From the NCBI RefSeq assembly GCF_963675165.1, contig NC_087379.1, positions 1,926,201 to 1,990,200 on the forward strand: 64,000 bases of DNA, given 5' to 3'. The notes below the pieces were generated by a model. It saw nothing but the letters and a program-made list of their open reading frames with translations. It was not told the origin of the DNA and searched no databases. This stretch comes from Halichondria panicea. Its lineage: Eukaryota > Porifera > Demospongiae > Suberitida > Halichondriidae. Positions 19,801 to 55,336 of the stretch are shown piece by piece. Numbering within the stretch: position 1 is the stretch's first letter; each line of letters opens with the position of its first letter. A program made the translations under genes and the position numbers.

Positions 19801-19860
19801 TCCGGTGCGTTTTGGGAGAGAGGACGGATCTAGAGAACACATAACGGGTTAATAAGTTAA

Positions 19861-20759
19861 CCCTTTCCCGGCTTTAATTAAAAAAACAAAATACAGAATA
19901 AATACATATTTTTCTTTAAAAATAAATATCTCATGAACAATGCATTGAAATCACTTGCAACTATTTCCTACAGGTAGCCCAGATCCTGGGGGTACCATGA
20001 CATCATCATCGTTACCTAGCAACTGACCACCCCCCACTAATTAACGATTTTTTACACATTTTACAATTATGAACATAAAGAATATTGTATGAAGGCATGA
20101 AGTAACTAAAAACACTAAGTAAGTGTTCTCAATGTTCTTACGGTGACATGGTTCAATCAGGATCAGCAGAAACTTCTCTGCGAGGTCGTATCGGCAGACG
20201 CTCTTTTCCCGGGAAATGTTTTCTTCACCTACACACAGGTTTACAAGTTCAATGGTGGCTCATGATGTCCACTTGTGTACTAACTAGACTAAGCATACCA
20301 TACTGAAGCTATACAGACTACATATGATACTCCATAGTTACTTACAAGGTCCAGGACTTTGGTTCATGCTCAGGAGCTTCTTCCTCTGGCTCTTTAGGCT
20401 CTATGTTTATAGCTTGACCTCTGAAAAGTAGTTTCCTCTCTTAGTATGATCCCAGTCACTGTCCTCTTACTCAACAAGGCCATAAGCATAGTTATTCTCA
20501 CTGTCTAGCTGCCCTAGAACCTCGCTGAGGTTGTACTACGAAGATCTTGTAGCCATTATCAAACGGTCACTTTTCTTTCGACAGTACTGCACAAAGCGTA
20601 CCTCGAGGCAAGATATTAAAGATACCATGTGAAAGAGCAGCCCAATGCGCATGTGCTGGTACCTACAGTGTGCGCATAGCTCCAACACAGCGCCCACAAC
20701 GATTTTTTGAAAATTATCACTACCGCTGCCGTCATATGACGGCTAAAGCCGGGAAAGGG
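19861..20759. mobile_element. piggyBac-type nonautonomous element (TTAA target)
   Basis: Termini CCCTTTCCCGGCTTTA and TAAAGCCGGGAAAGGG are perfect 16-bp inverted repeats flanked on both sides by TTAA. Copy B lacks the insertion at the equivalent place (40115-40130), so it is younger than the duplication. The minus strand carries exon-like pieces bounded by splice signals, ending at about 20340 (an acidic EPKEPEEEAPEHEPK stretch) and at about 20150 (CRYDLAEKFLLILIEP). They may be captured host sequence or transposase relics. No intact transposase. Confidence 0.85.
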
Positions 20760-23026: not shown

Positions 23027-23349
23027 GACTGGCGGCGACAGCCCCTCGTGTACCGCGAGGGACTGGCAAACTGTCTATCAGTCACTCGTCTCAGCTGCAA
23101 CGAGCATTGCAGCCTATCAGGTTGCTCAACGTCATATTAGCCCTGTAATTGTAACCGCACTTACACTTCAGGGGATTCAGTGCATTCCATAGTAGCTGAA
23201 TCTCATAGCAAAATTTAACCACATTATCTATAACGATATTCATGTTTAGTAGTGTCATACGATCTATTACACTTCCGCTGAGACGAGTGACTGATAGGCA
23301 GTTTGCCAGTCGCTCGCGCTACACGCTCGGGCTGCTGTCGCCGCCAGTC
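23027..23349. mobile_element. MITE, GACTGGCGGCGACAGC termini, TA target (nested)
   Basis: Inverted ends GACTGGCGGCGACAGC and GCTGTCGCCGCCAGTC, flanked by TA. It is the same element, inverted, as 34198-34519. About 320 bp, noncoding. Confidence 0.85.
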
Positions 23350-23428
23350 TAATTATATTCATGGCTAACAGCTATTAATACGTGTATAATTATATGATGC
23401 ATGTTATTGCTGCACTTGATCGAATTTC

Positions 23429-23986
23429 AATCCGACTAGAAAAACATTTGCAATGTGAAAAATTGCTAGGATTGGCCAGGGGAACCACAAAAAAGCGTGG
23501 GAACAAGAAATCAGACGAGAGCATAACTCCAATCCGTTACAACGTCAATCACATGTATACTGGTAGTTTTCTCATGTTTTCCCAGCCAATATGCCACGCA
23601 ATTTTTACTGGTGGAGTGATGACCAATCCCTATATATATTTATTATACATCCATTTTAGAATGTGGGGCACATAATCATGATGATTTGTGATAAATTGAT
23701 GTTCCTAATACATGCAGTGTTGAGCACAGGTACACACAGTCCATCCATGCATAGTAACATGCACGGACCGTACTGGTGACTGCATGGAATGATGTGGTGG
23801 ATGGAAGCTGATAGGTGGATCTGGAACACAGTCTATTATTTAATATACTATGTATTGTACATGTTCATGACGTTGTAACGGATTGGAGTTATGCTCTCGT
23901 CTGATTTCTTGTTCCCACGCTTTTTTGTGGTTCCCCTGGCCAATCCTAGCAATTTTTCACATTGCAAATGTTTTTCTAGTCGGATT
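23429..23986. repeat. Long inverted repeat (118-bp arms, 320-bp loop)
   Basis: The arms 23429-23547 and 23869-23986 are apparently perfect reverse complements (for example the arm text ggccaggggaaccacaaaaa and its complement). A transcript crossing this would fold into a long hairpin. It lies inside the 3.6-kb TIR element. No gene is recognised in the arms. Confidence 0.85.
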
Positions 23987-24539
23987 CCCTTTCTTTTTCA
24001 GTACAGTTTACGTATCATGACATGCATAAGTGGAACGTCAAGAGGCAGTACAAGAAGAGAAGACAGGACTAATCAGATATCTTCTCGAATATCTCTGGAC
24101 TAATAATTATATTATAATGAGTAATAATTTATTGCTTGATAATTATGTTGAATTTGCGAATCAGTATTAAATGACAGCCATTTTAAGAGCATGATATCTA
24201 GCCAGTGCATATAGCATACCTGTCAGAGAAAGGGAGCTAGAGCTGAACAGTGTGAAGAAAAGGAACACCTCAGGCTCTGGAAAAGCACTGCTGCACTGAT
24301 TTTAGGCGCACGGTTTATTAGCCACGCCTATCTATTATTATTGGCCACAACGCAATTGCTGAGTCATTAAAGATGGCGGAATTGTCTAGGTAAGAGAAAT
24401 AGAGACTGAGAGGTCATCTGCCTTGTGGAAGCAATCGCAAATCTGAAGAAGCGCTTTGTAATCCAGGTTGTAGTCGTTTGGAAACCCTGTGCAGAATGTC
24501 CTGGAGATGGCTGTACTTGGAGTAAATGCTGGGCAAGAA

Positions 24540-24540
<1 letters not shown>

Positions 24541-24571
<31 letters not shown>
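24541..24571. repeat. (CTTA)n microsatellite
   Basis: About seven uninterrupted ttac units, inside the 3.6-kb element. Confidence 0.9.
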
Positions 24572-24572
<1 letters not shown>

Positions 24573-25089
24573 GTCAGTCAGACAAAGAGCGGTGAAACGT
24601 CGAAATAGTGCAATTTTTAAAATGAAAATATTCATTCATTAAAATGTTTATGGATTATGAAATGAGAGATACAAAGAGAGAAAAGGCTAAATAAACTATC
24701 TGTTCAGCCAGTTTCTTGATGTGGCCTTTCCCTGCAGAGATAGAACAGTTTGAACATGAGTCAAAATAATTGAAATATTGCTAAACACAGGCAAACCCAC
24801 TGCCAATCCTATGTAAAACCTACTGGTTTTACTAATAGAAATGTACAACAAAAAATGACATGAGCGGTGAACAATGCTATTAGAAGATATATACGTACAT
24901 GATTGTTTATAGTCGTGCGAGTGTTGTACAATGCAGTCATTGGAAATCGATCAACGTAAAATTAGGTTAGGCGACAACAGCACTTAATGTGTACTTCAAC
25001 ATTAATTTGATGGCCATACACCTTTCGTTGTTATGTTAGCAAAAAAACCCTGGGCCCATACGGTATATACCAGTCACTGACATATTTGA

Positions 25090-25900
25090 CCCACTTGAAT
25101 GTTACAACAGTAATGTCATTCCTTATGAGGGCATCGTACACAGCATCCCGTGGCATGCTTCCTTCACTACGTATCCAAAGGAACCGTCTACAACGCAATT
25201 GCATTTGGAGTCACAGGATTGTCAGGTTCAACACGTACTTCTATATAATTATAGGTACAGGGACACCTTCGTCAATAAGTACACTTGCTTTTCAGAGTAC
25301 TTCTGGATATAGTTTTTCCTTAATACATCCGATCACCTTGAAAGGTATGGTGTGTGACTGTTTCAGACTCTGCGTCTGAATAGTCCGGGGTTCCGTTGGC
25401 CGAAAACAAACAGCAATTCCCCTCACTATTATTACCGTCTTGTCTTGTGGATGTAGCACCTGCCACTTTCAAATAACAAACACCTTGCCGTCTTTAATTC
25501 TCAATCCATCGACATTGACCACATTGGCAAACTCTTCTTGTCGTATCTTGAACTGGTTTGGCAACAACAAGATCATTTTGGAGTTGAATGAGCGTCACAT
25601 GCACATTAACTGTGTGAACGAGAATGGATTATTAAAACGTAAAACAGAGAATAAAACTAACTTGTGCGTTTAGCCTAGCTGCTTTGCGACTACTTTCAGT
25701 CAAGTATTGAGCTGCTGCTCCCTCCCACAGTCGAACACAGGGCGGATGAGATTTTGGCTTCTCAATAGCTGGCCTTTGTTGCATGTAGCATGCATGTACG
25801 GCCACTTTATACGTATAATTATACATTGTAAAAGGAGGCCTCAGGCTCTTCTGCTGTGCATGTGGTGCATGCATGGTCCTGGATATAACTTCTTTTAATC
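25090..25900 (-). pseudogene. Coding-like relic inside the TIR element, HIRAN-like motif
   Basis: The minus strand contains long open pieces: an exon-like segment near 25870-25670 (RPAIEKPKSHPPCVRLW), then FKIRQEEFANVVNVDGLRIKDG, then a piece reading VRVEPDNPVTPNAIAL. The EPDNPxxxNAIA pattern resembles HIRAN domains (a DNA-binding fold). Stops and frame changes intervene. It could be the element's own accessory gene or captured host sequence. The assignment is tentative. Confidence 0.35.
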
Positions 25901-26156
25901 ATAGATGATGGCTTCTTATAGCTGGTTGTTTTGGAGTATTCCCTGACATGATTCTATTGATGGCAAGCTCTTTGCTCCAGGCTGTCTTGATGATGTCTTT
26001 CAGCTTGTTGGTTAGTCTCACGAATCAGCCGCCCTTCCTAGGTCTCTCACTTAGGAAGGGCGGCTAATTCATGAGACTGGCATGCAATTAACACAACGGC
26101 AATTAGAGACCTAATGAGCAAAGGTTAAGTGCTTCGCGCCTCCTCTGTGTATATAC

Positions 26157-26345
26157 AGTCTATACAGTTCACCACGCATCATGTGCACAGTCTATACAGT
26201 TCACCACGCATCATGTGCACAGTCTATACAGTTCACCACGCATCATGTGCACAGTCTATACAGTTCACCACGCATCATGTGCACAGTCTATACAGTTCAC
26301 CACGCATCATGTGCATCATGTACATGTATATACAGTTCACAACAC
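26157..26345. repeat. 32-bp minisatellite in delta-catenin intron 4 (copy A)
   Basis: About five tandem copies of a 32-bp unit starting cagtctatacagttcacca. The equivalent intron of copy B (41908-42130) has a different, interrupted arrangement of the same unit. Confidence 0.9.
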
Positions 26346-26739
26346 ATCATGTACATGTATATACAGTCTATTACAGTGAGTGGGCATATCTTCACCATGC
26401 ATGATGTGTGTGTATACAGTACTTACAGTGAGCGTGCATACATGTACTTTCACCATACACCAGTCTCACCTCGCAGGAGGAGAGGTTCCAGAGTAGTCCA
26501 GTGAGCAGCTCCCTCACCTCGGCAAGCCGACTCATCCTCAGAGCCAGCAGGATCTCAGCCAACCCATGTTCACCTGCAGTGAGGGGGGAATTTGCTCACA
26601 CTTGTGCTGTTATTAAACAACACCCTGAGGGTTTGCAGGTGCTATAATTGTGGTCAGTTTAGAATTATAACGGACCCAATCTATAATTTGTTGTACATGT
26701 ACGTAGGTAAATTAAATGTGTAGTGGTACATCGCATACT

Positions 26740-33974: not shown

Positions 33975-34197
33975 TGTTAATAGTAGTATTTCCAGGATCT
34001 AGGAGAGGGATTAGATCCACTTGACCTTTTAGTAATTAAAAGGTCACTACCGTATTAATTAAATATGGATTTTTCTCCAAACTTCTCTTGCAGACTATTT
34101 CAACCTAGTGTCTGTAAGTTTAAAACATTGTTTTGCAGAGAGTATCATATCAGTTTTTATTTTCTCCAATTTTGCTCAGGAGCGTGCAGAGGGATTA

Positions 34198-36884: not shown

Positions 36885-39800
36885 CTACACCCACGAGTCC
36901 TCTTGCGGTGGCTCCTCTTTTACTATCTCTTTCTCTTTCTTTTCTTTCTCCTTTTGCCGACGAGATGCTCTTTTCTTGTGAATGTCAACCTGTGCAAAAT
37001 CATATAGTGGATTGCAATAATTAAATGACTGCATGGAGGAACCATGCAGACACTTGTACAACGCACACTTACACATTTGTGGCAACGCCAGAGCTATCAA
37101 ATACTTGGTTGGTACAACAATTGATTCGAAACGTTACAATATAGATTATGTATACAGATTTCAATCACACTCTTCAGAGAAGTTAACAAACAAGACTGTA
37201 ATTATGATCTCACCGAGGCGTAAGTGGCGTTGGGGTCTGGCTCAGACTCCTCCTGCGAGGTGGCCGAGAGTGGGCCGGTGGTTGACAGGGGGCCGCTGGT
37301 TGTAGAGCCAGCTGTCTCTGTGTGGGGGGCAGTGTCGGACCGAGGGGCGGGCACTGAGGAAGGGGTGACCGGGTGGGTCTGCTTCAGGTCTGGGTCGTCA
37401 ATACTCTGTGTATAGAGAGTATATGTACTATAACACGCAGTGTTGACATACAGCCAATGTATATGAGTTTGACTGCAAATATTTGTGAGACACACACTCA
37501 AGGACTGAAATTATAGCCAGGCAACTTAATAGGTTCTTCTTGAAAATTGTACTCATGAAAACACATACTTATCCGGCTTCACACGTACCACATCAGGTAC
37601 ATGTACGTATAGGAGGACCATAATTATAAGCCAGTTTTGAATGAACACTTGTATGTTCAGACTAAAGCTATACACGTGCAATGTAATACCACTAAAGAGG
37701 CTGTATATTAAATATTATGTAAACAAGGTTTTAGGCCTAATTAGCTCACCTGATAAATGACAGGTCCCGGTTCCTCTTTGGGTATGAGCTGATAGCCTGG
37801 TTCCTCCATGTCCATCAGCTGCTCCTCCTCGGCTGTGGGGGGTAGTGAGCGAGGGGGTTGGGGGTGGGAGATGTGCATAGGGGAAGCCCCTGATATCATC
37901 GACGACTGTACGGGTAGTGAGAAGAGAAACAGGTGATTATCAGCATTCAACATAGTACATGCATGTATAACATATTGAGTTATGTGGTCAATTATGGCTT
38001 CAATATAATTGCACTTTATAAATGTGGTTGACAAGTATGCCAGGGACTGTACACGAAAAATGCTACTTTGAGCTGGTTGGAGCTAATCAGTATAAAAGTC
38101 TTGAAGCACTTGACTCAAATAATTGTCTTCATTTAGCAATTGGTAATGAACTCTCAACTTATAGTCGATACAATCATTACAACCATTTCTTAGCCAAAAC
38201 TTACCGTGGCTGACATTGGCTCATGTCTCACTCCACTCATTCCACTCATCACACTCTCCTCATCATCTTGGCGACCTGGGCGTTTTGACTTCTTTGACAC
38301 CTTCTTACTTCTCTTCTTCCTCCGAGAACCCTGGTAGTCACGAGAGATGCTCACTCTCTGCTCAAAATCAAATTGGGAGCTTGACTCTTTTACTAACTTT
38401 TGAAACTGGCTCATTTCCCAACCCTCTTTCTTAAGCGCTGACTTACACTCTTTGCACTCGTACAGGATGGAGCAGAGCTGTGTGTGTGTGTGGGGGGGGG
38501 GGGGGGGTGAACAGTAGGATACTAAAGTATTATAGTGGTTACAAATAGGCCAAACTTAATTACGGTACAAATACAAAATTGCTATGCTATACAAAACACA
38601 GCTGGTATTTCAACATTGCTTGTAATGCAAAACAGTGTACACATGAGCCTCGGTACAAACCATACTACATGCACATGTACACATGAAGACAAGATAATAT
38701 GTACCCTGTTCTCACCTTCCCGGCAGCAAAGATGATCTTCTGAGTGTGTTGTCTTGACCACGTGAGACGTGTGAGGAACGACAGACCCTCTCCAGTCTCC
38801 AGGACCAGGCTACATGGAAAGAGAGACACACCACCACCGTTAGAGCTAGCTATCAATAACCTTAACTATAATCACATTTGCATCTCTATGACAATGGTAC
38901 AGAGTAACCTCCACCCATAACCTCTTCACTTAGTAAAGAATATCACACACGCAGTACAGCCGTAAATATTATGTGTTTTAAAGCCCTTGTAATTAACGGT
39001 TTTCATGTCCAGATATGTACCCTGCTCTTCTAGTGACCTGCAGTTAGTGTTCTAAAGCTCAGTGCTGCATGTGTAATAAACGATTCTAAAGGTCAATAGT
39101 TCAAACATACCGTGCATTAGTGGTGCTCTCAGTGCAGACCTCCATGAGACAACAGAGGAGTGAGATGGTGGTCTCCTCGGACATACCCAGGTGGTTTGAT
39201 CCGTACGGGAGGCGGGGGATCACTGATGCTATCACTTGAGGACCTGGGGGAAACAGCATTGTAACTATGACAACTGTACAGTACACGTACATGTAGAGTG
39301 CTATTCCGCTGATCATGAATACCATCATGACAACTTTTATTGTAATGATTTGCAAGCGCTAACAGCTTCTCAAAAATAAGAAGGCAAAGACCTATACTGG
39401 TACTTGTATGACATCACGATCCTTGCCACAAGGCATGTATACAAGAAGCTACAATACGAGCAATTAATAGACTGTGCATACATTTTTGTACGTAGTAATT
39501 ACAGGCAGCCACAGCAATAGCATGTGTGCTAGCTTGTACTGTACATGTACGTACCTAGAGAGGTTTTGTTTCGAGGGTCGATGGCTAGGTTTCTAAGAGC
39601 CATGGCTGCTGCCCTCACCACCGCATCATGGCCATTGTTGAGTAGCTCTGCCAATAGACGCAGGCCATTGGACGTCCGGATCATGTTACGAGCATACACC
39701 GCCCACTGTGTGTGTGTGTGTGTGTAGAAAGTTGCTATAGTGTAGTGGAACATGTATATACATGTACCGTATAACTATAGCACTAGCTAAAGGAGCGATC

Positions 39801-42800
39801 ACAATGCTGTATAGGCAGGCACACACTCAAAGGTGTGCAGGGGGTGGGACGCTGCTCTAGTGTAACGGAACATGTACATGTGATCGTGTATAACTTGCAC
39901 TTCTGCTAGCATAATAGGCACAAACCTTCCAGTTGCATGCTGTGAGGTTTTGAATTGCACCGGCGGCCGCCTCAATGGTTTCTATGGCAACAGAGAAATG
40001 CTCAATTAGGGCCAGGTACAGATACACGATGTCCGGTTGCCATAGCAATGCCATTCCGTACACAGGTCCGGTGCGTTTTGGGAGAGAGGACGGATCTAGA
40101 GAACACACAAAGGGTCAGTAAGTTAAGTGAATAAGTGAAAAATACCGTGAGTCTTATCGAGTAGTACGTACACATGTACCAACCAAAATAATCAATAAAC
40201 ACTTCCTTAGTAATACATGAAGTTGAAAGAGAAACACACATGCAGCCACCAAAACCACCAAAGTTTAAGAGCATAAATAATGTACATTAGTTAATTAGTA
40301 CTGGGTCTTGCACAAGGTACACAGTGTCACTGCTATAACAACATAAAATAATAGCACTAAACTTAATACTTAATGAAATTGATCGAGTTGACCATGCATG
40401 TACTGTACACCCACTCTCACCAGGATTAGCGTAGTCCACACTGTAGGACGGTCTGCTGACCATGGGACTATGGACACGCCCTCTTTCCCGTCGACTGTTC
40501 CCACGAGATCTTTTGAGAAACGCCAAACACCCGGGACTTGAGTTGGAGAAAGGCTGCGTGATCTCATCCATGTCTTTCCGTTGCTCCTCTTCCCAGTCAT
40601 GGTCCAGTACATCCCCCGTCCCTTCCTGAGGATCCACTTCGTTCTCGAGACGATAAGAGAGGTTACGCAAGACACATGCTGCATTCTCCACAGCCTAGTG
40701 TGTGTGTGTGGGGGTACATATTGAAATAATTAAGTAAAGTACATACTGTATCACTTGTACAAGTAATTTTTTAGCATGTGAATCTCATAACTTTGGTTTG
40801 GATTGTCCGGTTTCTCGTTTTAATGGTGCATTCATCAAAATTAAGGGCCTGTTTTCGACAAAAAAGCATAGGCTATAGATGGGGCAAAATTGGGTGCTCT
40901 CAAAGTTAGTGAACTAAGCAGACCACATCAAAAGATATCCTCGTAGTAATTAAAGCTTTTAAAATATCATTGAAAAGAACCATTACAACCCAACTTGAGT
41001 TATGGCTGCTTTGCATAGTGTACGTACATTATACTGATTCCTACGTGATGTATGTTACCTTTTCATCAGCAGCTGCCTTGTGGAGTACCGCAGACCTAAG
41101 CAGCCATACAAGCGTGTCGACCAGTCCATTGCTGGCCCTCATACAAACTCGCGATGGTTCACCCGATGAGGAGATGTTCCGTAACGTACCTATAGAGAGG
41201 GGTGGTGGTGCAGACAGTGCTATGATGATGTACTGTGTTTCAACACACACAGAATGCATGCACATTCTCTCGCATGTGACACTGTGTTACATTATCTGTG
41301 TACGCGTACAAATTACTGTACACGTAGCGTACACTGTTGTTACAGGCCCTGAGGGTGTATATTGCTGCATAGTCTTAAGTATTGAGAATTGTATTTACTA
41401 CTAAAGTACATGTAATGCTGTGTCAGCACGGAGCTAATTAGGTTCAGGTACAAGATAGTCAATGTATTAACCACACTTGCACTGGTATGAAAACTAAGTA
41501 CATGTAGCTCTAAATGTCCCATCTCTCACCAGTGATGTTTCTCAGCTCAATGTTCCACTGTATGAAGCTAGGTTTAGCCAGAGGGTCCTTGGCCGCCTCC
41601 AGACTCCACCCAGTGTACGGGACCATCGTCAGCTCTACTATGTCGTGGGTACTGCTCTTAATGATACGAAGTTTCATTTCCTGGATACAAAGGAGAAATT
41701 AAAGTATACTGTTATTTGTGAGACGTTACATTGGGGGAGGAGAGGGAAGTTTTATTTTAAATAATTATGCAGATGGATATTTTGGTGCGATCACCCACCT
41801 GAACAACTAAGGCATTTCTATGTACAGGTACATGTACATATATTAATAAAGGCCCATACATATTTGAGAGTTTCGGCACATGAACAATCATGTATTTGTA
41901 TGCATGCAGTCTATACAGTACAGTGAGTGGGCGGGCATATCTTCACCACGCATCATGTATGTGTATGTGCATGTATACACAGTCTATACACTTCACCACG
42001 CATCATGTGCAGAGTCTATACAGTTCACCACGCATCATGTATGTGTATGTGCATGTATACACAGTCTATACAGTTCACCACGCATCATGTGCACAGTCTA
42101 TACAGTTCACCACGCTCTATTACAGTGAGTGGGCATATCTTCACCATACATGTACATGATGTGTGTGTGTATACAGTACTTACAGTGAGCGTGCATACAT
42201 GTACTTTCACCATACACCAGTCTCACCTCGCAGGAGGAGAGGTTCCAGAGTAATCCAGTGAGCAGCTCCCTTACCTCGGCAACCCGACTCATTCTCAGAG
42301 CCAGCAGGATCTCAGCCAGCCCATGTTCACCTGCAGTGAGGGGGGAATTTGCTCACACTTGTGCTGTTATTAAACAACACCCTGAGGGTTTGCAGGTGCT
42401 ATAATTGTGCTCAGTTTAGAATTATAACGGACCCAATCTATAATTCGTCATACATGTGCGTAGGTAAATTAAATGTGTGTAGTGGTACATGTACAGCTCT
42501 GCGCTAAATTACTTGCAAGATAAATACTAATAATGACCATGTAAACTATTGCGTATAGTGAGTACATGTTCATGCAAGTTTGCACTCCGACCTGCTATTT
42601 CCATTTTGTTCTCGTCGTTGGCCCGTCCAAATGACAGGTTTCTGAGAGCACCCAGTACTGCCATCTGCACCCTCGTCTCCGGACGTCTCAGCTGGTTCAC
42701 CAGTGCAGGAATGGCACCATACGTCCTGAGGCAATGCACAGTAGCTTGTATACATGTCAACATACATCTACATGTATAACATTTAAACTTATGACTACAA

Positions 42801-45800
42801 TAAATTTATGCTGATGATCAAATGAAGACACTACATGTAGTACAAGGCTAGCTTGCACACACGCACTGTGACTGGTGAGGGTACAATAAGCTCACCTTAT
42901 CTTTGACTTCATGTTGTCATCGCCATAAGCCAGGTGTTGAAGGTAACTGGCTGCATTAGAGACCAAACCTGCATCATCAGAACTGAGGAAATCCACCACA
43001 TCATTGAGGTTTGGCTCATTGCCCTTCCCAGAAGAGCGCTCTGAGCGAAGGAGACCACCACCTGACTGCTCCATAGAGTCATCTACATGTGTGTGTGTGT
43101 GTGTGGGGGGGGGGGTGTTAAATAATAGTAAGTACATGTTTGAAAAGCTCTAACAGATGCAAACAAAAAAAACCTGTTTATAAAACCCAAAAATGTGCAA
43201 AAACTACCTGTATGTACATGTATCTATAGAGACTATACTACATGTAGCCACAATTTTACATACTGAATAGAATACGTCGTTTTGTAAGCATCATCGATCG
43301 ATACGCTCTTTGACCTCTACAGCTCTGGAATACTCGTCCGCTGTTGCCATAGCTACGAGGTCTACCACCGGAGCAAATCTCGCTCTGAGTATCGACAAGA
43401 CTAAACGCTTCTGAAGCATCACTGCCAACAGAGAGAGAGATAAGAGATCCTATCTGACTCACTGGACTTCGAGGGGAGGGGGGCGTAGAACTTCTACCAA
43501 TGCGAGAGAATGTGGGTGTTACACTGTTGTGAGTGGGGTGAGTGTGTGTGGGCGTAGATGTGAGGTGTGAGAGTCGACGTAGAGGGGCTGTGATGATCGC
43601 ATTCAAATACGACGAGCGATACGCTTTGTAGCGAAGTGGTGACCTCTCTGAACCCCCACGCTGAACTGGAACCGGAAACTTAAACACAGACGGCTCTTCT
43701 CTGGGAACGTACGGTGCACACTCGCACACCATGGAACGAGACTTGTGCCCCTCAATATAATCGAGGGCGTTCACTGAGTAAGACGTGTGAGCGTTAAATG
43801 AGTGAGACGTCTTCATTCTGCGCGGCACATGGTAGAAGGTGGGGCTTGCTTGAGGGGAACCCTTCACGGGTACACGTTGTGCCACTGTTGTTTTGGGATG
43901 TCCAGGGTAATGCGTGACTGCGTGTTGTTCGTATCTTCCTACAATGGAATTACAGCGTGTTCGCCCGAATGAGAGATTGGAGGGACTAGTGTTCAAGACG
44001 GAGTGATTGTTGGTGGAGGCAAAATTTGATGATGGGTAACTTTCTGACAACGAATGACGGCCAGATTGTCGTCCAAACGATAAGTGTGGTGATCCACGAC
44101 ATTCGTCAGTGTCACACTCCTCTTCAAAGTTTGTGAACTTTGTGACAGGTGTGAGGGCGAGGGGGGATCGTGGAATAACGTTATGGGAACCGAAACTCCT
44201 GCTTCGAGTCGCAATCCGTGGTGACTTCACTTCTTCGAGGTAGCTAGTGAATGATTGCGGGGAGGAGCTAAGTTCATACGGGGAAGGGGGGTAGGCAGCA
44301 AGTGCTATGTTGCTAGGCATAATAGCCGAAAAACTTGGATTAGGTAAATCAGGTGGATCAGGTGAATCACTTTCGATAGTCATCTCATGAAGATTTGGCG
44401 AGCTTGCGGATAGTTCGATTTTCGAACGAGATGTTTCTTTGCCGATGAGAAGTGGTGAGTCTAAAACTTTGTACCAGTCGTCTACCTGCTCCGGCGGCTT
44501 TAGGAGAAGGCTTGGTGGTCGAAATGATTTCTTCTTCTTTTCGATGAGATCAGATGTACTTTTACTTTCTTTTTTTGACGAAATGGAAAGTTTCTTTCGA
44601 AACGATAGCTTGATGCTCTTCTTCTGACAGGGCTTGGACTGTCCTGTACTGTCATCAGTGGATGCAATGTACCACGGCTCTGCAGACTCCTCTACTATCT
44701 CCTCTGCTGAGTAACTCTTCGAGATCTTCTGATTCTCTCCCCAAGCGCTAGTTGGTTTGTCAGAGGATCTTGACTTTGGAGCACTCTTAGTTCTGCGTGG
44801 TTGACTAGGAAACATTCTAGCTATAGTCTAGCTATAGTCTAGCTAAGCAATATATTGAACTCTTCACAAAGGCCTCTACTGTAACAGTACAATAGCAATT
44901 CATTAAATACTGGTGAAAAGCTGCCTGAAAACTTTCAAATATCAGCGATAATTATACTAAAGCTCAAAATGTTTCACCTGGCACCTGTGTGTGTAAAGTA
45001 TGCACTGTGCTAACTATTGACCATCATCACCTTTAGACCAACTAAAGGAAGCTCACAAGCATACACATGCTTAACAGGTTATACACATATTTAACAGGCA
45101 CATACAACTCATTGCTAAATTTGATCTATAGTTCTATTGTGCTATTCAACACCACAATCATAACTATAGCAGCCAATCATATAGCAGCCCATTTGTCTAT
45201 TGATAATTAGTAAAGCCTATATTTGCAGTTAACCAAGTTCTGTGGTCAATTATGGCTTTATTTGTGCTTTATGTGGTTGACAAGACTAGTATGCCAGGGA
45301 CTTTTTACAGCATACAGATTAAAGCGGGAGTCCAATCGCATATGATAACATGAATTTCAGTGAAGTAGGACAAAGTTATGACAACACTATGAAGGTCAAA
45401 CGCACACAATAGTAGCACAACAACATGCATTACCATCACAGAGCCATGACAGTTTATAAATTTACAAGGAAAAAAACGACTAGGTGCACACATGCATATG
45501 CATAATTATGCATTAATCAAATCACACATTATCGACCACCTTGCATAGAATAGTCACTTTTTGGTACGTACACCTGTATGTACATATCAAGCCTTCGTCC
45601 CCAGTCCAATATTTCTCTAATGTACATACACTCTAATGTATAACACTAGATTTCGACCTATAGTGTTACATCAGAAAAAAATAGGAGGCTATAATTAGTC
45701 GTCATGTCTCACCTAGATATCTCCCTGACGATTCGTGTAGGTTACTGCTGTACGAAGTGTCTCGTGGCATCTCGTGTCTGCCTCTTCTCTGACCGGGGGG

Positions 45801-48800
45801 TGTGCGTGAAGGGTCGTATCCGAGCATGGGAGGGTGTGTCGAATCCGCCCACGAGCGTTGGGGGGCTGACGAAGAGAGGACAACTTGTGAGGCGGGTGCA
45901 GAGTGGAGGTGTGGCTGTGTGTATGAGGGGGTGGGTGGGTCAGTTAAATACCCGGAAGTTGAAAATTGGAAAAAAGCCAATAGCAACCATACATAGACAA
46001 ATTATGGTCAAATTGATACCATAGTAACATCAAAACCTACAGCAGTTTACTCTATAATGCGGTGAAAGTCATGTTTCTGGTTTGGGAATCACCCTACCAC
46101 TACCGGTATTCATTATTGTGATATCATAAACAGAGAATGAACACAATGTGGGCTTCTGAACACCTATATACACAAGTCATGTTTGTCCACGACGTACATA
46201 TATGTACCACAATAGTTAAACAGTCACCTGACAAATGTGCTACACCCACTAGTTTAAAGTTCATGGTACATTAATTGTTGGCATACTTGCAACCACTGCA
46301 CTGCACTATTGATGACACAAGAGCCTGCAGCAAAAACAAGATACTGTTGACTATTTTAAACATGGCTACACCAAAAAAGACAAGCCAAGAGCAGGTGAAT
46401 TTTGAGCAAGAATATGCTTTCAGAAGCGTGGAACTCTTCAAAACTGAGACCCTTGGTACTGGCTCTTATGGGGCGGTGTGTAAAGCCAGGTGTGACCAAC
46501 TTATCTGTGCTGCCAAGCTACTCTATCCAGTGCTCTTCCAAATGATTACCCCCGATCCTGGCAAACAACACAGACAACCAATGAAACGATTTGAGCTAGA
46601 ATGTCGATTTCTAAGCCTCATCAACCACCCCAACATAATTCAATACCTCGGGACCTATCGCGACCCCGACACAAATGCACCAGTTCTTCTCATGGAGCTC
46701 ATGGACGAGAGTCTGACACACTTCCTGGAGTCATCACCTGGAGATATTCCCTACCACATCCAAGTCAACCTCTCCTATGACATAGCTCAAGCACTCGCCT
46801 TTCTCCACTCCAATGAGATCATTCATCGTGACCTCTCCAGTAACAATGTCCTACTACTAGCAGGCCGTGCTAAAGTTGCCGATTTTGGAATGTCCAAATT
46901 TGACACACACCTTGCAACGATGACCACATGCCCGGGAACAGCAGCGTACATGTCCCCTGAGGCTCTAAACACGCCACCAGTGTACACGGAGAAGCTCGAC
47001 AACTTTTCCCTCGGAGTACTCATACTTCAAACTATGACTAGAAAATATCCCAACCCCTCGGACCAATTCATCACTAAGGAGTTAGTCGATCCGCACTTCC
47101 CCAGCCGTAAGATAAAAGCAAAAGTTCCAGTGCCCGAGACAGAGAGAAGAGAAGCACACATCAGTCTTACGGACATCTTCAACCCTCTGCTACAAACAGC
47201 TCTAGATTGCCTCGCAGATAACGAAACTGACCGGCCAACTTCGAAGAAACTTTGTCAGAAATTTGCTCTCTTGAAGGAATCGAACAAATACACTGAGAGT
47301 GCACAAAAAGATATGGGCAAACTATTGAGAGAAAAAATCTGTCAAAGCGAAGAACAAAAAGAGTTAATAAAAGCTCAAAAACAAGAACTAGAAATGATTA
47401 AAAAACAAAAAGAAGGTGCATTGGGTATGATACAGGAGAGTGCCAAAGAAGAAACCTGCACACCAGAACTAAAAGAACATACAAAGCTCAAAGAAATTCA
47501 ACTTCAGTCTGCTAGACAACAGCTACGCACACAAGATGACCAGCTATTAAGAAAAGATGACGAAATTCAAGAATTGAGAGCTGCACTACAGGAGAAAGAA
47601 AGAGCACTAGAACAGCTACAACAGAAGAGAGATACTGCACGAGAACACAACACAACAGACAGGGGATCATTGCATAATATAATCACAACTGAAAGTACAC
47701 CACCACATCCTCTAAGTAACACCCACACATACAGAGAATCTCCTAGCAACACGCCCACTCACACCCCTAGCAGCACACCTAGCAGTACCCCAGTTGGAAC
47801 TCCAACTGTTCCGAGGAAACGTACAGCTTGGAAAAGACCCATCCCCCCTTGCCCCACCTTTCTCAAAGCCGGCTCATCAGCTGTATGTGGTAACGACGCT
47901 TACTTTAGAGGGGCAGGTAGCAACCAGGTTTACAAGTTTGACGCTTCCGAGAGGAGATGGCGATCGATTGGTCAACACCCTTTCTTCGGATTCACTCTAG
48001 TAGCCATCGAGAACACGCTCACAACTGTGGGTGGATTCAATAAAGAAAGTTCAAACAAGCTATTCGATCTTGTCGACGGAATCTGGGTCGAGAATTTGCC
48101 AGAAATGCCAACGAGCAGAGACAGGCCTGCAGCTGCGTACACAAACGGTTACCTCATAGTAGCTGGAGGCAAGGATGTACATTCAGAGCCACTACAATCT
48201 GTGAATATCCTACAGTTGGATACCAAGCAATGGGCCAAAGCTGCGGTACTACCATTCCAAACACACCATGCCTCGGCAACGATATGCGAGGACAAGATCT
48301 ACCTCACAGCTGGAGATGACATTGAAGATCGCAATTCTTTCGCGGTTTTGAGCTGCTCTATTTCTGCTCTCTTGCAAAGTAGGCGGTCCCTATCACTAGG
48401 AGCTAGACTAAAGAAAGCATTACAGCCCTCGAACAAGGTGTGGCAAGCTATAGCCGATTTGCCCACTAGTCGGTCCTATTTGGTAAACTCGGGCGATCAA
48501 CTTATCGCTATCGGTGGGTCAGACGTAACGGGAAAGAGTTCTAAGAATGTGTACAAGTACGACAGCGTGAATAACACCTGGATCATTGTGGTAACTATGA
48601 CCACAGGACGAAGCAGCTGCCTCGGAGCAGTGTTTATGGAGAACCTACTAATGGTGGTTGGAGGCTATAAATTGACCACAAAGGAAGCAGAAGCTGTCAC
48701 ATTGTTATAGACATGCACCTAACAGTCTCAGCTAGATTTTATTAAATTTTTGTTGAGAACACAAAGAGCTATTATTTTAGCAATACAACGTAGTTGTATG

Positions 48801-51800
48801 ACAAACATTAATTGTATTTGGGCGTGGCCTGACTTTCCATTGAGAAGGAGGTCGAGTTTCAAGCCATATATGTCAGGATTTGTCTTGCTGCATTGTTATT
48901 TTAACCAATTTGACTTGATGAATACTACGTGCTTGCGGTTGCGCAACCGACTACAGTAATCTGATTGGGCTGCAACTTTAGTTTCAGCAAGACAAATCCT
49001 GACACAGGTTTGAAACTCGACCCCCTTTCTCAACGAAAGGTCGAGCCACGCCCAACTATGATTAATAATTGCACATGAATAATAATATCTACACAATGAT
49101 ACATACAATGAACATATGGGATGTGAAGAAAACAAATAGAAGCCATTTAGAACCTTCCTTTGACAAGGGGAATATACGTACGTACATCTAGTCACCAGGA
49201 GCTATTGAATTCATGCACTCCTGATATCACACATACATGTATACTGTACAGCTACATGTAGCACATAGTTATTATAGATATACATGCAGATCGTTATAGT
49301 GTACATGTACACTATACATGCAAGGCCTATTTCGAGCAGCCTGGTCTAGAACTGCATTGTTAGACGTCTATGTAAAATGTCCAGTAAAACAACTAATTCT
49401 TCAAGAACAGGCCTGTGCTCACACTTATCACACTTATAGCTAGTACAGGGAATATGGAAACAGCTGAACAGGCCATTAATTTAAGCTAGGGGTAGTTTAC
49501 CTTCCCAACACGCATTCTAGTTCGATGCAAGCTCTTAGCAACTGAATCCATACGACACATGATTCCAGTCGCACGTATACAGAAAGTATTTCTCAACTAG
49601 TGCGAATACCTGAGAACTCAACCCGTACACATGCAATTATTGAAGCCAATAGCTGGGAAAATCGATTGTTAAAGCTTTGATCTTTGAAGGGAAACCTTTA
49701 CGTAAACACTAGGTAAGGTAAGATGATGCATACCCCTTGATTCAAGTACACCATATTGAGAGGCTGCAATGAATCTGAAATTGGATACTAACAAGAGCCT
49801 CGTATAAAAGTTTGTAAGAAGACAAACAACTCAGTATTCAAGTATAGTCAAAGAGATTGAAGCGGTATCACAGAGACTTCAATAAATCCAATATAAATAT
49901 GAGCAAAGAAAAACCAGTCACTTATCGACAGAAAACTATGGCCTTCAAGAGCATAGAACTCTTTAAGACTGAGACCCTTGGTACTGGCTCTTATGGAGCA
50001 GTGTTCAAAGCCAAGTGTGACCAACTCATCTGTGCTGCCAAGCTACTCTATCCAGTGCTCTTCAAAGTTGACATGAACAGTTCCAAGGAAAGCAAAAATC
50101 ATCGACAACCATTTCAACGCTTCAAGTCAGAATGCCATTTCTTGAGTGTAGTCCAACATCCCAACATTGTACAGTACTTGGGAACCTATCGTGATCCTGA
50201 TACAAATGCACCAGTTCTTCTCATGGAGCTCATGGACGAGAGTTTGACACACTTCCTGGAGTCATCACCTGGAGACATTCCCTACAACATTCAAGTCAAC
50301 TTCTCCTACGACATAGCTCAAGCACTTGCCTTTCTCCACGCCAACGACATTGTCCATCGCGACCTCTCAAGCAACAACGTCCTTCTCTTGGCAGGTCGTG
50401 CAAAAATTGCGGATTTTGGAATGTCTAAATTCGAAACCAGTTTTGCGACGATGACCACATGCCCAGGAACAGCAGTGTACATGTCCCCTGAGGCTCTAAA
50501 CGTGCCACCAGTGTACACAGAAAAACTGGATATGTTCTCGCTCGGCGTTCTAATGATTCAAATCATGACGAGAGAATTTCCTCAACCAGCCCCCCGATTG
50601 GCCACCAAAGAGGTTATCGATCCGAGCAATCCAGGGCAGAGAATTACAGCATTGATTGTAGTAACGGAACACCAAAGAAGATACGAACAAGTCAGCCGAG
50701 TCAATTTGACACATCCACTACTGCCGTTAGCTCAACAATGCATTAGAGATAACGACATCACACGACCATCGGCGACAGACTTGTGTGGAATTCTAACATG
50801 CATGAAAGAATCGACAAAGTACAAAACAAGCGCGTTTGATGGGGTTCACAATCAACAAAGAGAAAAACAACTGATGGATAAAATTACAAAATTGAAGGAA
50901 AGTTTTGAAAAAAAAGAAACAGAGCAGAGAAAAAAAGATCAAAAGCTGAAAGAAATGACAGAAATGTTAAAAACCGCAAAAAATGAAATACAACAGTTGA
51001 AAGAGAAATCAGAAGTACAGAAGAAAACAAGGACAAGAAAAGATGACTACCTAATACACAGTCTCCCCGTACAAATTGATGAAGCAGAAATCCTCGAAAG
51101 ACAGACACGACACAGTGCAGGAGTAATCAGTCCAATGTTGAGTCTTCCACCGAGCCCCCTCCCCTCACCCACACAGAGACTAGGAGAATGGGGTCCGTTA
51201 TCAGATTGTCCCATCAACGTACAGGCTGGTAGCTCCACTGTAGTCGGCAACAAGGCTTACTTCCAAAACAAAGATACCGGAGCCATTGTGGAGTATGATA
51301 GTGTCAATGGACAGTGGTGCATTATTCCGTTCCATTCGTTGAAACAATGCGGCCTGGCGTGCTTTGAAAGTACTCTGACAACAGTAGGTGGTTACGACGC
51401 TCAGTCTATGCCTTCAAACAAGCTTTTTAGCCTCGTCGACAACAAATGGAAGGAAAATCTACCATCCATGCCAACTAAACGCGATTCTCCTGCTGTTATT
51501 TCCACATTAACTTCTCTTATCGTAGCCGGGGGAAGAAATCGATTCCAAACCCCCATCAAAGCAGTTGAGGTTTTAGGACTGAGCTCTAAGCAGTGGACAG
51601 TGGCTACAGCACTTCCGTTTCTAGCCTGCCATTCATCAGCTGTTGTACACGACGGGTACATGTACATAACGTCAGGGGAGGGCGGTTACAATCACCCTCA
51701 GTATTCGGTCATTAAATGCTCTATTGACGTACTTCAAAATCAAGAAAATGAACCTATCTACACGAACGCAGCGAGAGTGCTAGCTACTCAAATTCGAAGA

Positions 51801-53536
51801 AACTGGGAGTTTGTTTCAGATCTACCGATACAGCACGCGCAATTAGCGGAAGTCAATGGTCACCTGCTAGCACTTGGAGGTTCAAATCCACCCAAAGCAC
51901 ATTCTCCGAACCCCCAGGCAAAAGGAACACAGGCCGTGTACGAGTATAACTCGGTTCAGAACACATGGAACCGTATCAGTCACATGACTACGAGTCGGCA
52001 TCGTTGTCTTGCCGCTGTTGTGCCGGGTAATAAGGTGATTGTCGTGGGAGGAATTCCAACAGGCAACGAACGATCGAAATCTACCGAGTACACAAAACTA
52101 GATAACTGAACTATTCATTACTATGACTACAATTAATTTATGTTTTTGCATGCATGCTTGCATTTTCACTGAAAACTTGGCAATTTTATTATGAGATGAA
52201 AATAGAAACAGTTTTATAATACTTGTACAGCCGCAGCAATGTATACGTACGTACACACATACACAAGGCTACTAGTCCTACAAATTTAATTAACTTTACT
52301 GCACGTACAGTATATCGAGTTTCGAATGCGTAGTTTAGGATTTGCAAATTACACTGTACAAGCCCCATGCACTGCATTCTACGTATTTTAATCGGCGTGG
52401 ATTCGAGGCTAAACTATTTGCATGCTCACTCTTTGTGTGTCTTTGTTTGCGATCTATGCGAAAACTCAGAGTTTGCAATCGAAATAACCTTGCATTTCGA
52501 AACCTATACGATATACATTGTAATACCCTAATTAGTGAGTGAATGGAGGGAAACCATTCGACAACGGAAACACATACATAAACAGATATACACATGTGGG
52601 GGGATACTCTAGCTAGCATTTAAACAAGCACGCATTGAACAACCAGCGCCTATTAATTAGATTGCCTGCTTGGAGCCGTATTTGCACAGATACACGTTGG
52701 GATAAGGCATTGGGTAATTAAGTCTAATCAAAGAGACAATTAACATTGTGAATGTTTCAAGGTTAAGGTTACATAAATGCAATATATAGTATAATTATAG
52801 TATCTAATCATACGATATGAAAGCCAAGAAGTAGGTATTTCTCACTACACTGACGGGACCAATCACACATCAAAACAAAGAATACCATTGTACTTTGTAC
52901 CTTAAGGCCACAAGTACTTTACAGTATTAGCGCAGGTACATGTAGTTTTTGAGAGTATACATAATTGTAACGAAGTCTTCGTGGACGAAATGTTCACAGA
53001 AAGCAACAGCCCCACCCCCTAAAGCTCTCGAAATGTCACGCAATGATCAGAAATGTACGTGCATGCATGCACACAACACAGTAGGAAGCTAGACAGTCAT
53101 TAACAAAAAAAGTATGGAAAGCTTGCGTGCTTTGCTAGCAGCCACCTATTGAACACCCACGCATTCTCCGCGGTCGAAAATTTCATGGCTTATTGCACAA
53201 CCCATGAAAACCTTAAAAATTACCCACTATAATTATAGTATGAAAAGCACAATCTTAAGAGATTATATTTTATAGTCTCATGACACTCACATGATATACT
53301 GGTCTGTCAGCACTGCCCCTACGAGGAAAGGGTTTGCCGTAGCTTCCCACGTTGATATCACTCTGAGCGACATCATGATGCGGACGATGGGCGGGGCTTG
53401 ACATAAGGTGGTTGTGGCCTATCAGAGGGAGTGCCTCTTGGCTGCGACTGTGTGTGGAGGACATGTCACCGCTGCTCAGTTGGGAAGGAGGGACACGACC
53501 ATCCCTGTGTGTGTGGTATGGGTGTGGGTGGGTGTG

Positions 53537-53598
<62 letters not shown>

Positions 53599-55336
53599 GA
53601 AATACATACGCACATGTACACGTAAATGGAATATGCTGTATAATATTAAATTCTCAAACTACAATAAATTAACTTGTTATGGGGCACATGTACGATCAAA
53701 GAGTCATTTGTATATTTAAACACAAAAAAACAGGCAGAAACAAAAGAATTGATCAGCAGAATAACGAACCCACATTCAAGCAACCAATACGTCATCACTA
53801 AGCCATTGATGGAGTACTCAAGGTACATAGCTACATGTAGTACGTACCTGTATCCAGGTCTGCTGTTGGTAACCACGCCCCCAACTCCAATCTGAGTTTG
53901 CTCGTAGTTCCTTCGTCTCCTCGTACTGGGTGACCCGTGTGGAATATTCTCCATGCTCCGGGTGTTTGGACCCCCTCCTCCACTGAGGCCGTGTGGGGGG
54001 TAATCATCACTGGCATTACGTCGTCCTGCGCTCCCCCACTGGTTGTGGGCGGGGCCATCAATCGAGCGTATCGCGAATTCTGGCACGGGACTGAGTGCTT
54101 CTGGTTTGCGATTGTAATAAGAGTTAGAGGAGTTCTCGTAGTTCCTCCGATGTGACCTGTGTGTGTGGGTGTGGGTGGGTGTGTGTGTGTGAGAGTGTGT
54201 GTGAGTGGGTGTGTGTGTTGGGGGGGGGTAATTCATACTTGTAGCTACATCCACATTTTACGTGTATGAGTGAAAGCATTGCCATCTGATACAATTATCT
54301 CTTTATGCTCTAATTACAAAATTGCTGTTACATGTACATGCATGTATATACATGTATAGGAGACACTGAGTGTGTGTAATGCACACGGCCCTACCTGGGT
54401 GAATTGGACGTGTTGGCCCCGCCCCCATCCACGTGCCCATTAGGAGCTTGGTTACCATACCGACCGGGAGGAGATTGCACGTCTACAGAGAGAGGTATAA
54501 ACACGTTGAGAGTATTAGTCTGTAAACATAATATTATTGAAGGAGTTCAAATGCTTCAGTAAACATGTAAACAATTAATTCAGGGAATTCCCCTCGATAT
54601 AATTACGAGGAATGTGACACGCTTGACTAATTACATCACACAAACAAGTCTCTTTTTACTCTGCTGGGAATTGGCAAATAAAGTTGCAGCTCAAGTTACA
54701 CGCACTATGCACTATTATAATTAGGTGATTATGATTATAAAAAAAAACATGAACAACCAGGAGGTACTTTAGACGCAGGTAGACACACAAAAACACAGGA
54801 CTCACCAGAGAGAGGGTGTCTTGTGGGGTCAGGGTACAAGTCTTCATCGTTCTCCTCGTCCTGCTCTCGGAGGGTATGGTCAAACTCCCCCCCACCCCCA
54901 CTATACTGACCGTCCTTGTAGTGACTGTGCTTGCTACGCAGACGCTTCCTACAAACAAGATGAAGAGGTGAGGTGCACAATAAGGAATATGTAGACTAGT
55001 GGATATGGAAGCACTGTTCTTTGCACAGAGGAACTCTCTTATTCGGAGGGTCTATTATCGTTCTACTGTACTTTCATAATCACACAGGACACCCACCCCC
55101 ACACACATACTCACATATACCACCCACATATACCACACCCTCACATGACAGAGTCCACTAGGGCTGAACCACATGCACACACTCACACACCCACCCACCC
55201 CACCCACTCACATGACAGAGTCCACTAGGGCTGAACCACTCAGCTTAGAGTCAGTGTCACTGTCCTGATCTTCATCGTCGTCCATTAGTTTGAGATTGAC
55301 TTGCCAATTGGTCATGCCCCCTCCATGAATTGCCAT
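36885..55336 (-). CDS. CTNND-like: Delta-catenin/p120/ARVCF family armadillo protein, two alternative 5' ends
   Basis: Cytoplasmic adaptor expected to bind the cadherin juxtamembrane tail and Rho-GTPase regulators. Common exons: 43082-42896, 42725-42592, 42330-42227, 41680-41530, 41189-41059, 40694-40421, 40095-39926, 39705-39555, 39243-39111, 38809-38716, 38477-38205, 37905-37750, 37405-37214, 36989-36885. 5' set I: 55336-55212, 54948-54806, 54482-54395, 54156-53848, 53504-53291, 45914-45713 (1111 aa in all). 5' set II: one exon, 44815-43315 (1251 aa). Every junction is GT-AG and all phases agree. Armadillo repeats show SNAASYLQHLAYGDD, GALRNLSFGR, GLLWNLSS, AACVLRNLSYR, AGAIQNLTACNW and ALRNLAIDPRNK, as in human p120/CTNND2. 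Then comes a Lys/Arg-rich stretch, and the protein ends DSWV, the PDZ ligand of CTNND2 and ARVCF. The joining of set I to exon 43082 is inferred from phase. Confidence 0.88.
41908..42130. repeat. 32-bp-unit minisatellite in delta-catenin intron (copy B)
   Basis: Interrupted copies of the cagtctatacagttcacca unit alternate with a catgtatgtgtatgtgcatg spacer. This is the counterpart of the copy A array at 26157. Confidence 0.85.
43315..44815 (-). other. Large alternative first coding exon of delta-catenin (500 codons)
   Basis: It starts MFPSQPRRTKSAPKSRSS and is a Ser/Pro/Arg-rich, probably disordered region with a basic segment (KKSIKLSFRKKLSISSKK) and many SP/TP sites. The donor AGAG/GTCAAA at 43315 leaves phase 1 and matches the acceptor at 43082. 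Exon set I also ends in phase 1 and would put this exon out of frame, so I read it as an alternative first exon, not an internal one. A separate promoter would lie above 44820, where a short repeat of ctagctatagt occurs. Confidence 0.7.
46362..48710 (+). CDS. TKL-type protein kinase - coiled coil - Kelch protein 1
   Basis: Intronless, 782 aa from the ATG at 46362 (MATPKKTSQ); an in-frame ATG at 46275 would add 29 residues. The kinase domain spans about 22-300: Gly loop LGTGSYGAV (31-39), Lys in CAAKLL, HRDLSSNN (155), DFG (174) and MSPEAL, all catalytic residues present. A coiled coil follows at about 316-426, then a Ser/Thr/Pro linker. Kelch-type beta-propeller repeats run from 505 to the end (TLTTVGGF, YLIVAGGK, LIAIGGSD, LLMVVGGY). 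The coiled coil should allow dimerisation and the propeller target binding. It lies wholly inside the 7.4-kb delta-catenin intron, on the opposite strand. An ATTAAA signal lies about 30 bp after the stop. Substrate unknown. Confidence 0.92.
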   Translation: MATPKKTSQEQVNFEQEYAFRSVELFKTETLGTGSYGAVCKARCDQLICAAKLLYPVLFQMITPDPGKQHRQPMKRFELECRFLSLINHPNIIQYLGTYRDPDTNAPVLLMELMDESLTHFLESSPGDIPYHIQVNLSYDIAQALAFLHSNEIIHRDLSSNNVLLLAGRAKVADFGMSKFDTHLATMTTCPGTAAYMSPEALNTPPVYTEKLDNFSLGVLILQTMTRKYPNPSDQFITKELVDPHFPSRKIKAKVPVPETERREAHISLTDIFNPLLQTALDCLADNETDRPTSKKLCQKFALLKESNKYTESAQKDMGKLLREKICQSEEQKELIKAQKQELEMIKKQKEGALGMIQESAKEETCTPELKEHTKLKEIQLQSARQQLRTQDDQLLRKDDEIQELRAALQEKERALEQLQQKRDTAREHNTTDRGSLHNIITTESTPPHPLSNTHTYRESPSNTPTHTPSSTPSSTPVGTPTVPRKRTAWKRPIPPCPTFLKAGSSAVCGNDAYFRGAGSNQVYKFDASERRWRSIGQHPFFGFTLVAIENTLTTVGGFNKESSNKLFDLVDGIWVENLPEMPTSRDRPAAAYTNGYLIVAGGKDVHSEPLQSVNILQLDTKQWAKAAVLPFQTHHASATICEDKIYLTAGDDIEDRNSFAVLSCSISALLQSRRSLSLGARLKKALQPSNKVWQAIADLPTSRSYLVNSGDQLIAIGGSDVTGKSSKNVYKYDSVNNTWIIVVTMTTGRSSCLGAVFMENLLMVVGGYKLTTKEAEAVTLL
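48818..49055. mobile_element. MITE with ttgggcgtggc ends, between the two kinase genes
   Basis: Inverted arms of about 90 bp (ttgggcgtggcctgacttt to tcaggatttgtcttgct, and the complement at 48979-49055). No ORF. Confidence 0.75.
49857..52109 (+). CDS. TKL-type protein kinase - coiled coil - Kelch protein 2
   Basis: Intronless 750-aa paralogue of the upstream gene, same order. Kinase with LGTGSYGAV (41-49), CAAKLL, HRDLSSNN (H167), DFG (D186) and MSPEAL; coiled coil about 330-396; Kelch repeats about 457-745 (TLTTVGGY, LIVAGGRN, LLALGGSN, VIVVGGIP). A second ATG at codon 15 (MSKEKP) may be the true start. The kinase halves are far more alike than the linkers and propellers, as expected if targets differ and catalysis is conserved. 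Catalytic residues are intact. The pair arose by tandem duplication within the host intron. Confidence 0.92.
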   Translation: MKRYHRDFNKSNINMSKEKPVTYRQKTMAFKSIELFKTETLGTGSYGAVFKAKCDQLICAAKLLYPVLFKVDMNSSKESKNHRQPFQRFKSECHFLSVVQHPNIVQYLGTYRDPDTNAPVLLMELMDESLTHFLESSPGDIPYNIQVNFSYDIAQALAFLHANDIVHRDLSSNNVLLLAGRAKIADFGMSKFETSFATMTTCPGTAVYMSPEALNVPPVYTEKLDMFSLGVLMIQIMTREFPQPAPRLATKEVIDPSNPGQRITALIVVTEHQRRYEQVSRVNLTHPLLPLAQQCIRDNDITRPSATDLCGILTCMKESTKYKTSAFDGVHNQQREKQLMDKITKLKESFEKKETEQRKKDQKLKEMTEMLKTAKNEIQQLKEKSEVQKKTRTRKDDYLIHSLPVQIDEAEILERQTRHSAGVISPMLSLPPSPLPSPTQRLGEWGPLSDCPINVQAGSSTVVGNKAYFQNKDTGAIVEYDSVNGQWCIIPFHSLKQCGLACFESTLTTVGGYDAQSMPSNKLFSLVDNKWKENLPSMPTKRDSPAVISTLTSLIVAGGRNRFQTPIKAVEVLGLSSKQWTVATALPFLACHSSAVVHDGYMYITSGEGGYNHPQYSVIKCSIDVLQNQENEPIYTNAARVLATQIRRNWEFVSDLPIQHAQLAEVNGHLLALGGSNPPKAHSPNPQAKGTQAVYEYNSVQNTWNRISHMTTSRHRCLAAVVPGNKVIVVGGIPTGNERSKSTEYTKLDN
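52110..53290. other. Remainder of the large delta-catenin intron
   Basis: Downstream of kinase 2. AT-rich, with short palindromes and no gene recognised on either strand. Confidence 0.5.
53531..53596. repeat. (GT)n microsatellite abutting a 3' splice site
   Basis: About 30 GT units on the plus strand. In the sense of delta-catenin (minus) this is a CA tract ending just upstream of the acceptor at 53505. Confidence 0.95.

Follow-up and report, generated by a model that had tools for sequence, protein, structure and literature searches.

A sponge delta-catenin gene with two antisense kinase-Kelch genes in one intron and a candidate alternative first exon

The closest described relatives of the gene reported here are the catenins of the p120 subfamily (CTNND1, ARVCF, CTNND2 and p0071). 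PMC13245172 states that p120 orthologues are undetected outside animals. According to the main text of PMC3013132, core family members except p120 carry a C-terminal PDZ ligand, which is called ancient because C. elegans has it. An N-terminal coiled coil is present in the four core vertebrate members and is variable among invertebrates (PMC3013132). The two major isoforms of vertebrate p120 and of ARVCF hold or lack this coiled coil via alternative start sites, and N-terminal alternative splicing is treated as an innovation of these two proteins (PMC3013132). The words sponge and Amphimedon are absent from that main text, as is the word isoform from the main text of PMC13245172.

Sponge genomes provide the second point of comparison. 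Several are rich in single-exon and nested genes, with nested genes numbering 2432 of 19578 in Aphrocallistes, 3358 of 43615 in Amphimedon and 5032 of 32309 in Sycon (PMC10282587). Nested genes are few in Oopsacas (83/16340) and Ephydatia (0/39245), and the authors ascribe low numbers in some genomes to probable effects of annotation settings (PMC10282587).

The window, the whole 64,000-nt stretch of the Halichondria panicea genome analyzed here, encodes a delta-catenin on the minus strand (Table 1). Splicing of upstream exons E1-E6 to downstream exons D1-D14 yields one stop-free frame of 1111 amino acids, with GT/AG borders at all 19 introns. Seventeen of these introns fall within 170-546 nt. 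The two outliers, of 7376 and 2630 nt, are those with extra open frames inside. The intron 3' of D3 carries two 82-nt tandem units that are 98% alike (41942-42105). Neither RNA families at gathering score nor tRNAs were found within the window.

Table 1. Features of the delta-catenin locus, in window coordinates
Feature	Position	Strand	Basis
E1, first coding exon (long 5' end; ATG 55336)	55212..55336	-	Frame, donor; codon score 0.42 bits/codon
E2	54806..54948	-	Frame, splice sites, codon score
E3	54395..54482	-	Frame, splice sites; codon score same as +1 frame
E4	53848..54156	-	Frame, splice sites; +1 frame equally open, equal score
E5, donor into 7376-nt intron	53291..53504	-	Frame, splice sites, codon score
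Host intron, 7376 nt	45915..53290	-	Exon model, intron lengths
E6, last upstream exon, entered in phase 0 and left in phase 1	45713..45914	-	Frame, splice sites, codon score
N, open frame: candidate alternative first coding exon (end 43264 or 43315) or single-exon gene	43256..44815	-	Open frame, phases, codon score, donor scores
D1, shared acceptor 43082 (phase 1), armadillo region begins	42896..43082	-	Frame, homology
D2	42592..42725	-	Frame, homology
D3	42227..42330	-	Frame, tandem-copy comparison
D4	41530..41680	-	Frame, tandem-copy comparison
D5	41059..41189	-	Frame, tandem-copy comparison
D6	40421..40694	-	Frame, tandem-copy comparison
D7	39926..40095	-	Frame, tandem-copy comparison
D8	39555..39705	-	Frame, tandem-copy comparison
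D9	39111..39243	-	Frame
D10	38716..38809	-	Frame
D11	38205..38477	-	Frame, tandem-copy comparison
D12	37750..37905	-	Frame, tandem-copy comparison
D13	37214..37405	-	Frame, tandem-copy comparison
D14, C-terminus DSWV and stop	36885..36989	-	Frame, tandem-copy comparison
Kinase-Kelch gene 1 (782 aa, no introns), antisense to host	46362..48710	+	Open frame; Pkinase 8.1e-39, Kelch (scan began at second codon)
Kinase-Kelch gene 2 (736 aa, no introns), antisense to host	49899..52109	+	Open frame; Pkinase 5.6e-43, Kelch
Imperfect palindrome, 260 nt, 69%, MITE-like, between the two kinases	48807..49066	.	Repeat comparison
Truncated, frameshifted tandem copy of delta-catenin 3' half (D3-D8, D11-D14)	16947..26731	-	Protein search, block alignment

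The best solved match of the armadillo region is catenin delta-1 (3l6x, E 5e-87), aligned in two stretches that fall within residues 7-526 of a 531-residue query; plakophilin 1 comes next (5.3e-49). In a check of cadherin contacts, the protein is identical to p120 at Q391, H392, K401, K444, W477, N478 and K574; several other aligned p120 positions differ (e.g., E367N, D440A). We take K401, K444, W477 and N478 to be cadherin contacts of p120. The other three, Q391, H392 and K574, are named as cadherin-binding in PMC5968619. The upstream head lies on the disordered side of the Uversky plot (0.368 vs a boundary of 0.416). At its C-terminus the 1111-aa protein reads DSWV, a PDZ ligand like those of core p120-family members. 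Judged from its sequence, the gene is a member of the p120/delta-catenin subfamily, with which it shares the armadillo domain, the checked contact residues, a disordered head and the DSWV-type end. A genome search with the protein, in which all candidates were scored, returned 33 matches, all on contig C3. Of these, 32 lie in the window and represent the gene and its fragments, and the remaining one (C3:1829497) is weak (E 0.003, 29 residues). By this search it is the sole delta-catenin gene found in the genome. A search for silicatein, as a sponge marker, gave 77 cysteine-protease matches; among the six best, the four loci with a readable active site are all cathepsin-like and carry cysteine there.

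The tandem copy retains introns and lacks D1, D2, D9 and D10. It contains neither 5' end, and 4-base and 1-base deletions are present in D11 and D12. The missing exons and frameshifts make a dead fragment the most likely reading. Alignment with the gene gives four blocks of 513-2081 nt at 86-95% identity. Within them, exons diverge at 30 of 1702 positions (1.8%). For non-exon sequence, which comprises introns and a 3' flank of 390 nt, the figure is 198 of 3355 (5.9%); gapped positions number 5 in exons and 273 elsewhere. The lower divergence of the exons provides independent support for the downstream exon model. Sequence at 11218-12081 preserves older scraps, about 79-86% identical, from the D10 region and from the 3' end of delta-catenin. 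A short dispersed element, 78% alike, occurs in an intron of the gene (45236-45302) and in one of the copy (18428-18498). Between gene and copy lies an uninterrupted flavin amine oxidase frame of 535 aa on the minus strand (32391-33998). The same strand carries a 1044-aa non-LTR retrotransposon frame (2135-5269) with PHD finger, endonuclease and reverse transcriptase matches.

The 7376-nt intron encodes two kinases. The sequence-only reading had placed two intronless kinase-Kelch genes antisense in this intron, and they are indeed there: both are uninterrupted plus-strand frames with kinase and Kelch domains, and both lie complete inside 53290-45915. Both translations read GTGSYG, CAAK, HRDLSSNN and ADFG. 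We take the Gly-rich loop, AAK lysine, HRD and DFG to be kinase catalytic motifs, so that, on the predicted translations, the catalytic motifs of an active protein kinase are present in both. Over 718 aligned codons the two genes share 48.7% identity, and within the kinase domain 67.9%. There dS is 0.98 and dN 0.23; in the linker and the Kelch part dS has reached saturation. These values indicate that the nested kinases are old duplicates whose kinase domain is under constraint. Among the 60 of 2559 matches listed, the nearest solved kinases include CDK3, TAK1, CDK2, TNNI3K and IRAK4 (~1e-19 to 1e-18). CDK2 and CDK3 match at values similar to those of TAK1, TNNI3K and IRAK4, so these matches do not fix the kinase group. 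The kinase domain resembles those of the latter three, whereas the nested genes add Kelch repeats after it. Kinase-Kelch fusions are unnamed in the titles and abstract openings of the literature searched, a partial coverage that does not prove novelty.

The nested kinases belong to a much larger set. A genome search with gene 1 yielded at least 84 matches, with 58 of 1749 candidates scored. Kinase-side matches resolve into at least 56 loci, the nested two included. At least 45 of the 56 have an open frame of at least 650 aa, although 4 of those 45 have stops inside the match. At least 36 of the 56 lie on contig C16, at about 3.76-5.70 Mb, a large intronless expansion. With at least 56 loci genome-wide, the nested pair is best described as dispersed members of a big intronless family. 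Like the nested single-exon genes of other sponges they are intronless genes within an intron, with no essential difference, and the nesting on its own is ordinary. Transcription against the host intron is general to any antisense nested gene. The parts of this locus are all of known kinds, namely a p120-family catenin, nested intronless genes and an expanded kinase family.

Whether E1-E6 belong to delta-catenin was evaluated from splice sites and coding potential. Splice matrices were trained locally on the 13 armadillo introns only, with the E1-E6 sites and acceptor 43082 held out. The held-out donors score 5.8-11.3 bits and the acceptors 3.2-13.3 bits. Left out one at a time, the training introns give 4.3-12.2 bits for donors and -4.9 to 11.2 bits for acceptors; with 13 introns these matrices are noisy, and two training acceptors fall below 0 when left out. 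Training of the codon score used the D exons and both kinase frames, whose own scores are biased upward by this use; E1-E6 and the 1.5-kb frame N were outside the training. In the spliced frame all six upstream exons score positively (0.18-0.44 bits/codon). E3 and E4 do not fix the frame, because each can also be read without a stop in the +1 frame, with a score as good. E6 is open at 0.44 bits/codon. Of 3000 noncoding 202-nt segments, 2.9% lack a stop in a given frame, and none of these scores as high as E6.

The earlier proposal that the six upstream exons (55336-45713) fit the acceptor at 43082 holds: E6 leaves in phase 1 and the joined frame is open. We consider it very probable that E1-E6 and D1-D14 form one gene, with the nested kinases in its long intron. 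It is very unlikely that E1-E5, or E1-E6, are instead a separate upstream gene and that N is the true delta-catenin 5' end. Such a split would suit the length of the 7.4-kb intron, far above that of the other introns, the stop met when the E5 frame runs past its donor, and the AATAAA hexamers on the host strand within the intron, at 52190 and 48743. It is opposed by E6, which takes phase 0 to phase 1 exactly as E5 and D1 need, with an acceptor among the best 0.3% of AGs and a donor among the best 0.6% of GTs. Position 409 of the upstream-head protein aligns with human p120 Q391, so the upstream head is about as long as the human one, and N's own donor is weak. An assembly artefact, with misplacement or uncollapsed haplotypes behind the kinases or the tandem copy, is very improbable. 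The identity of the copy is within reach of a divergent haplotype, but its absent exons (D1-D2, D9-D10) and its own insertions and frameshifts are at odds with this origin. Identity of kinase gene 1, the only query in that search, to other places in the genome likewise stays at or below 84% in short stretches and is about 51% across the whole gene.

The 2630-nt intron encodes N, whose ATG is at 44815 and stop at 43258-43256 in a 523-codon open frame. The other two frames contain 18 and 32 stops over 44815-43264. Codon scores of N are 0.45-0.49 in the first 450 nt and 0.06-0.27 thereafter, positive throughout, and by these measures N is certainly coding. Its tail (43314-43259) scores 0.08 bits/codon, which does not separate the ends 43315, 43264 and the stop. 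N has no Pfam domain and no match elsewhere in the genome at E up to 1, and it lies barely on the disordered side of the Uversky plot (0.421 vs a boundary of 0.431). The contrast drawn earlier between a Ser-rich, basic 1.5-kb part and a Gly/Arg/Tyr-rich upstream part is roughly right for Ser (18%) and Lys (6%) in the former and Gly (10.5%) and Arg (8.9%) in the latter, but Tyr differs little (4.2 vs 3.5%). Three basophilic phosphorylation motifs are not enriched in N (p 0.45 to 0.49). [ST]P motifs are weakly enriched (18 vs 12.2, p 0.033 uncorrected, one of four motifs tested).

Two further ideas about N were rejected. Homology of N and the upstream head was suggested by a blastp E of 0.010, but that value is reached in 7/1000 full and 10/1000 local shuffles. 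For N as an internal cassette exon, a single AG in the scanned region (45010-44801) would serve, at 44820; every other AG there is out of frame with E6 or precedes the last in-frame stop. The AG at 44820 scores 0.73 bits, and a third of all AGs score as well. The strong acceptor at 44984 (8.56 bits) could serve a 5' UTR exon only, because E6 joined there gives TGA as the fourth codon.

The sequence-only reading took 44815-43315 as a coding exon that joins 43082 and gives delta-catenin an alternative N-terminus. The coding frame and the phase stand, the 3' end is not firm, and the alternative N-terminus is possible, with a close rival. We lean toward N as an alternative first coding exon, at a little over an even chance. 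The donor at 43315 (GAG|GTCAAA) leaves in phase 1 as acceptor 43082 needs, an agreement expected by chance in one of three donors. It scores -1.86 on a generic matrix, where 21% of the GTs on the strand do as well. A second phase-1 donor at 43264 (TCA|GTATGT), with a stop five bases beyond, would add 17 residues and scores -1.37 (17% of GTs do as well). All 19 modelled donors score above both on this matrix (0.4 to 7.2). On the local matrix, 43315 reaches 3.6 and 43264 reaches 1.2, against 4.25 for the weakest armadillo donor. The armadillo donor at 42592 (CAG|GTCGGA) has C at +3 like 43315, indicating that such donors are used in this gene. The distance from N to the shared acceptor would be 181 or 232 nt, inside the range of 17 of the 19 introns. 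The rival, to which we give somewhat under an even chance, is that N is a separate single-exon gene of 519 aa on the same strand, nested in the 2630-nt intron of a host with one 5' end (E1-E6). The weak donors fit this, as does the completeness of the frame, which runs from a start to an ordinary stop of its own, and single-exon and nested genes are many in several sponge genomes (PMC10282587). Against it, a separate gene would run into D1 unless it ended in the 173 nt before the host acceptor, and it would be one lacking a Pfam domain and any other genome match. Neither AATAAA nor ATTAAA occurs near after 43256, the nearest on the same strand being at 41756. This is uninformative, because neither hexamer follows the stop of delta-catenin itself as far as 36000.

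The frames, phases, domains and nesting can be read from the DNA itself, and the following picture builds on them. A long transcript would start upstream and splice E1-E6 over the 7.4-kb intron to D1-D14, giving the 1111-aa protein. The product would combine a disordered N-terminal region, an armadillo domain for cadherin tails and the C-terminal PDZ ligand DSWV. The two kinase-Kelch genes, antisense in the long intron, would have their own transcription. If N is an alternative first exon, a host-strand promoter downstream of the kinases may drive a second transcript, in which the weak donor at 43264 or 43315 would be spliced to 43082. The same armadillo domain would then receive a different, Ser/Pro-rich head, which may affect junctions. 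Taken whole, with one delta-catenin, nested antisense kinases and N as an alternative first exon, this picture is just on the probable side. An extension of it is quite unlikely. There, isoform choice at the N-terminus of a p120-family protein outside vertebrates would work via alternative promoters, with the antisense kinases between the two 5' ends acting as a switch. Kinase transcription would collide with the long upstream transcript and favor the downstream start, and with it a different regulatory head.

A second head of a sponge p120 is unnamed in the titles and abstract openings of the literature searched, which cover the field in part. As with isoforms 1 and 3 of vertebrate p120 and ARVCF, the candidate N exon would give one armadillo domain two heads. 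As an alternative head it would be a 517-aa single exon, and this candidate would be independent of the vertebrate isoforms or much older. A sponge delta-catenin with a DSWV end would take the PDZ ligand deeper than C. elegans. The second head, if confirmed, would mean either a greater age or more than one origin for isoform choice in this junction protein.
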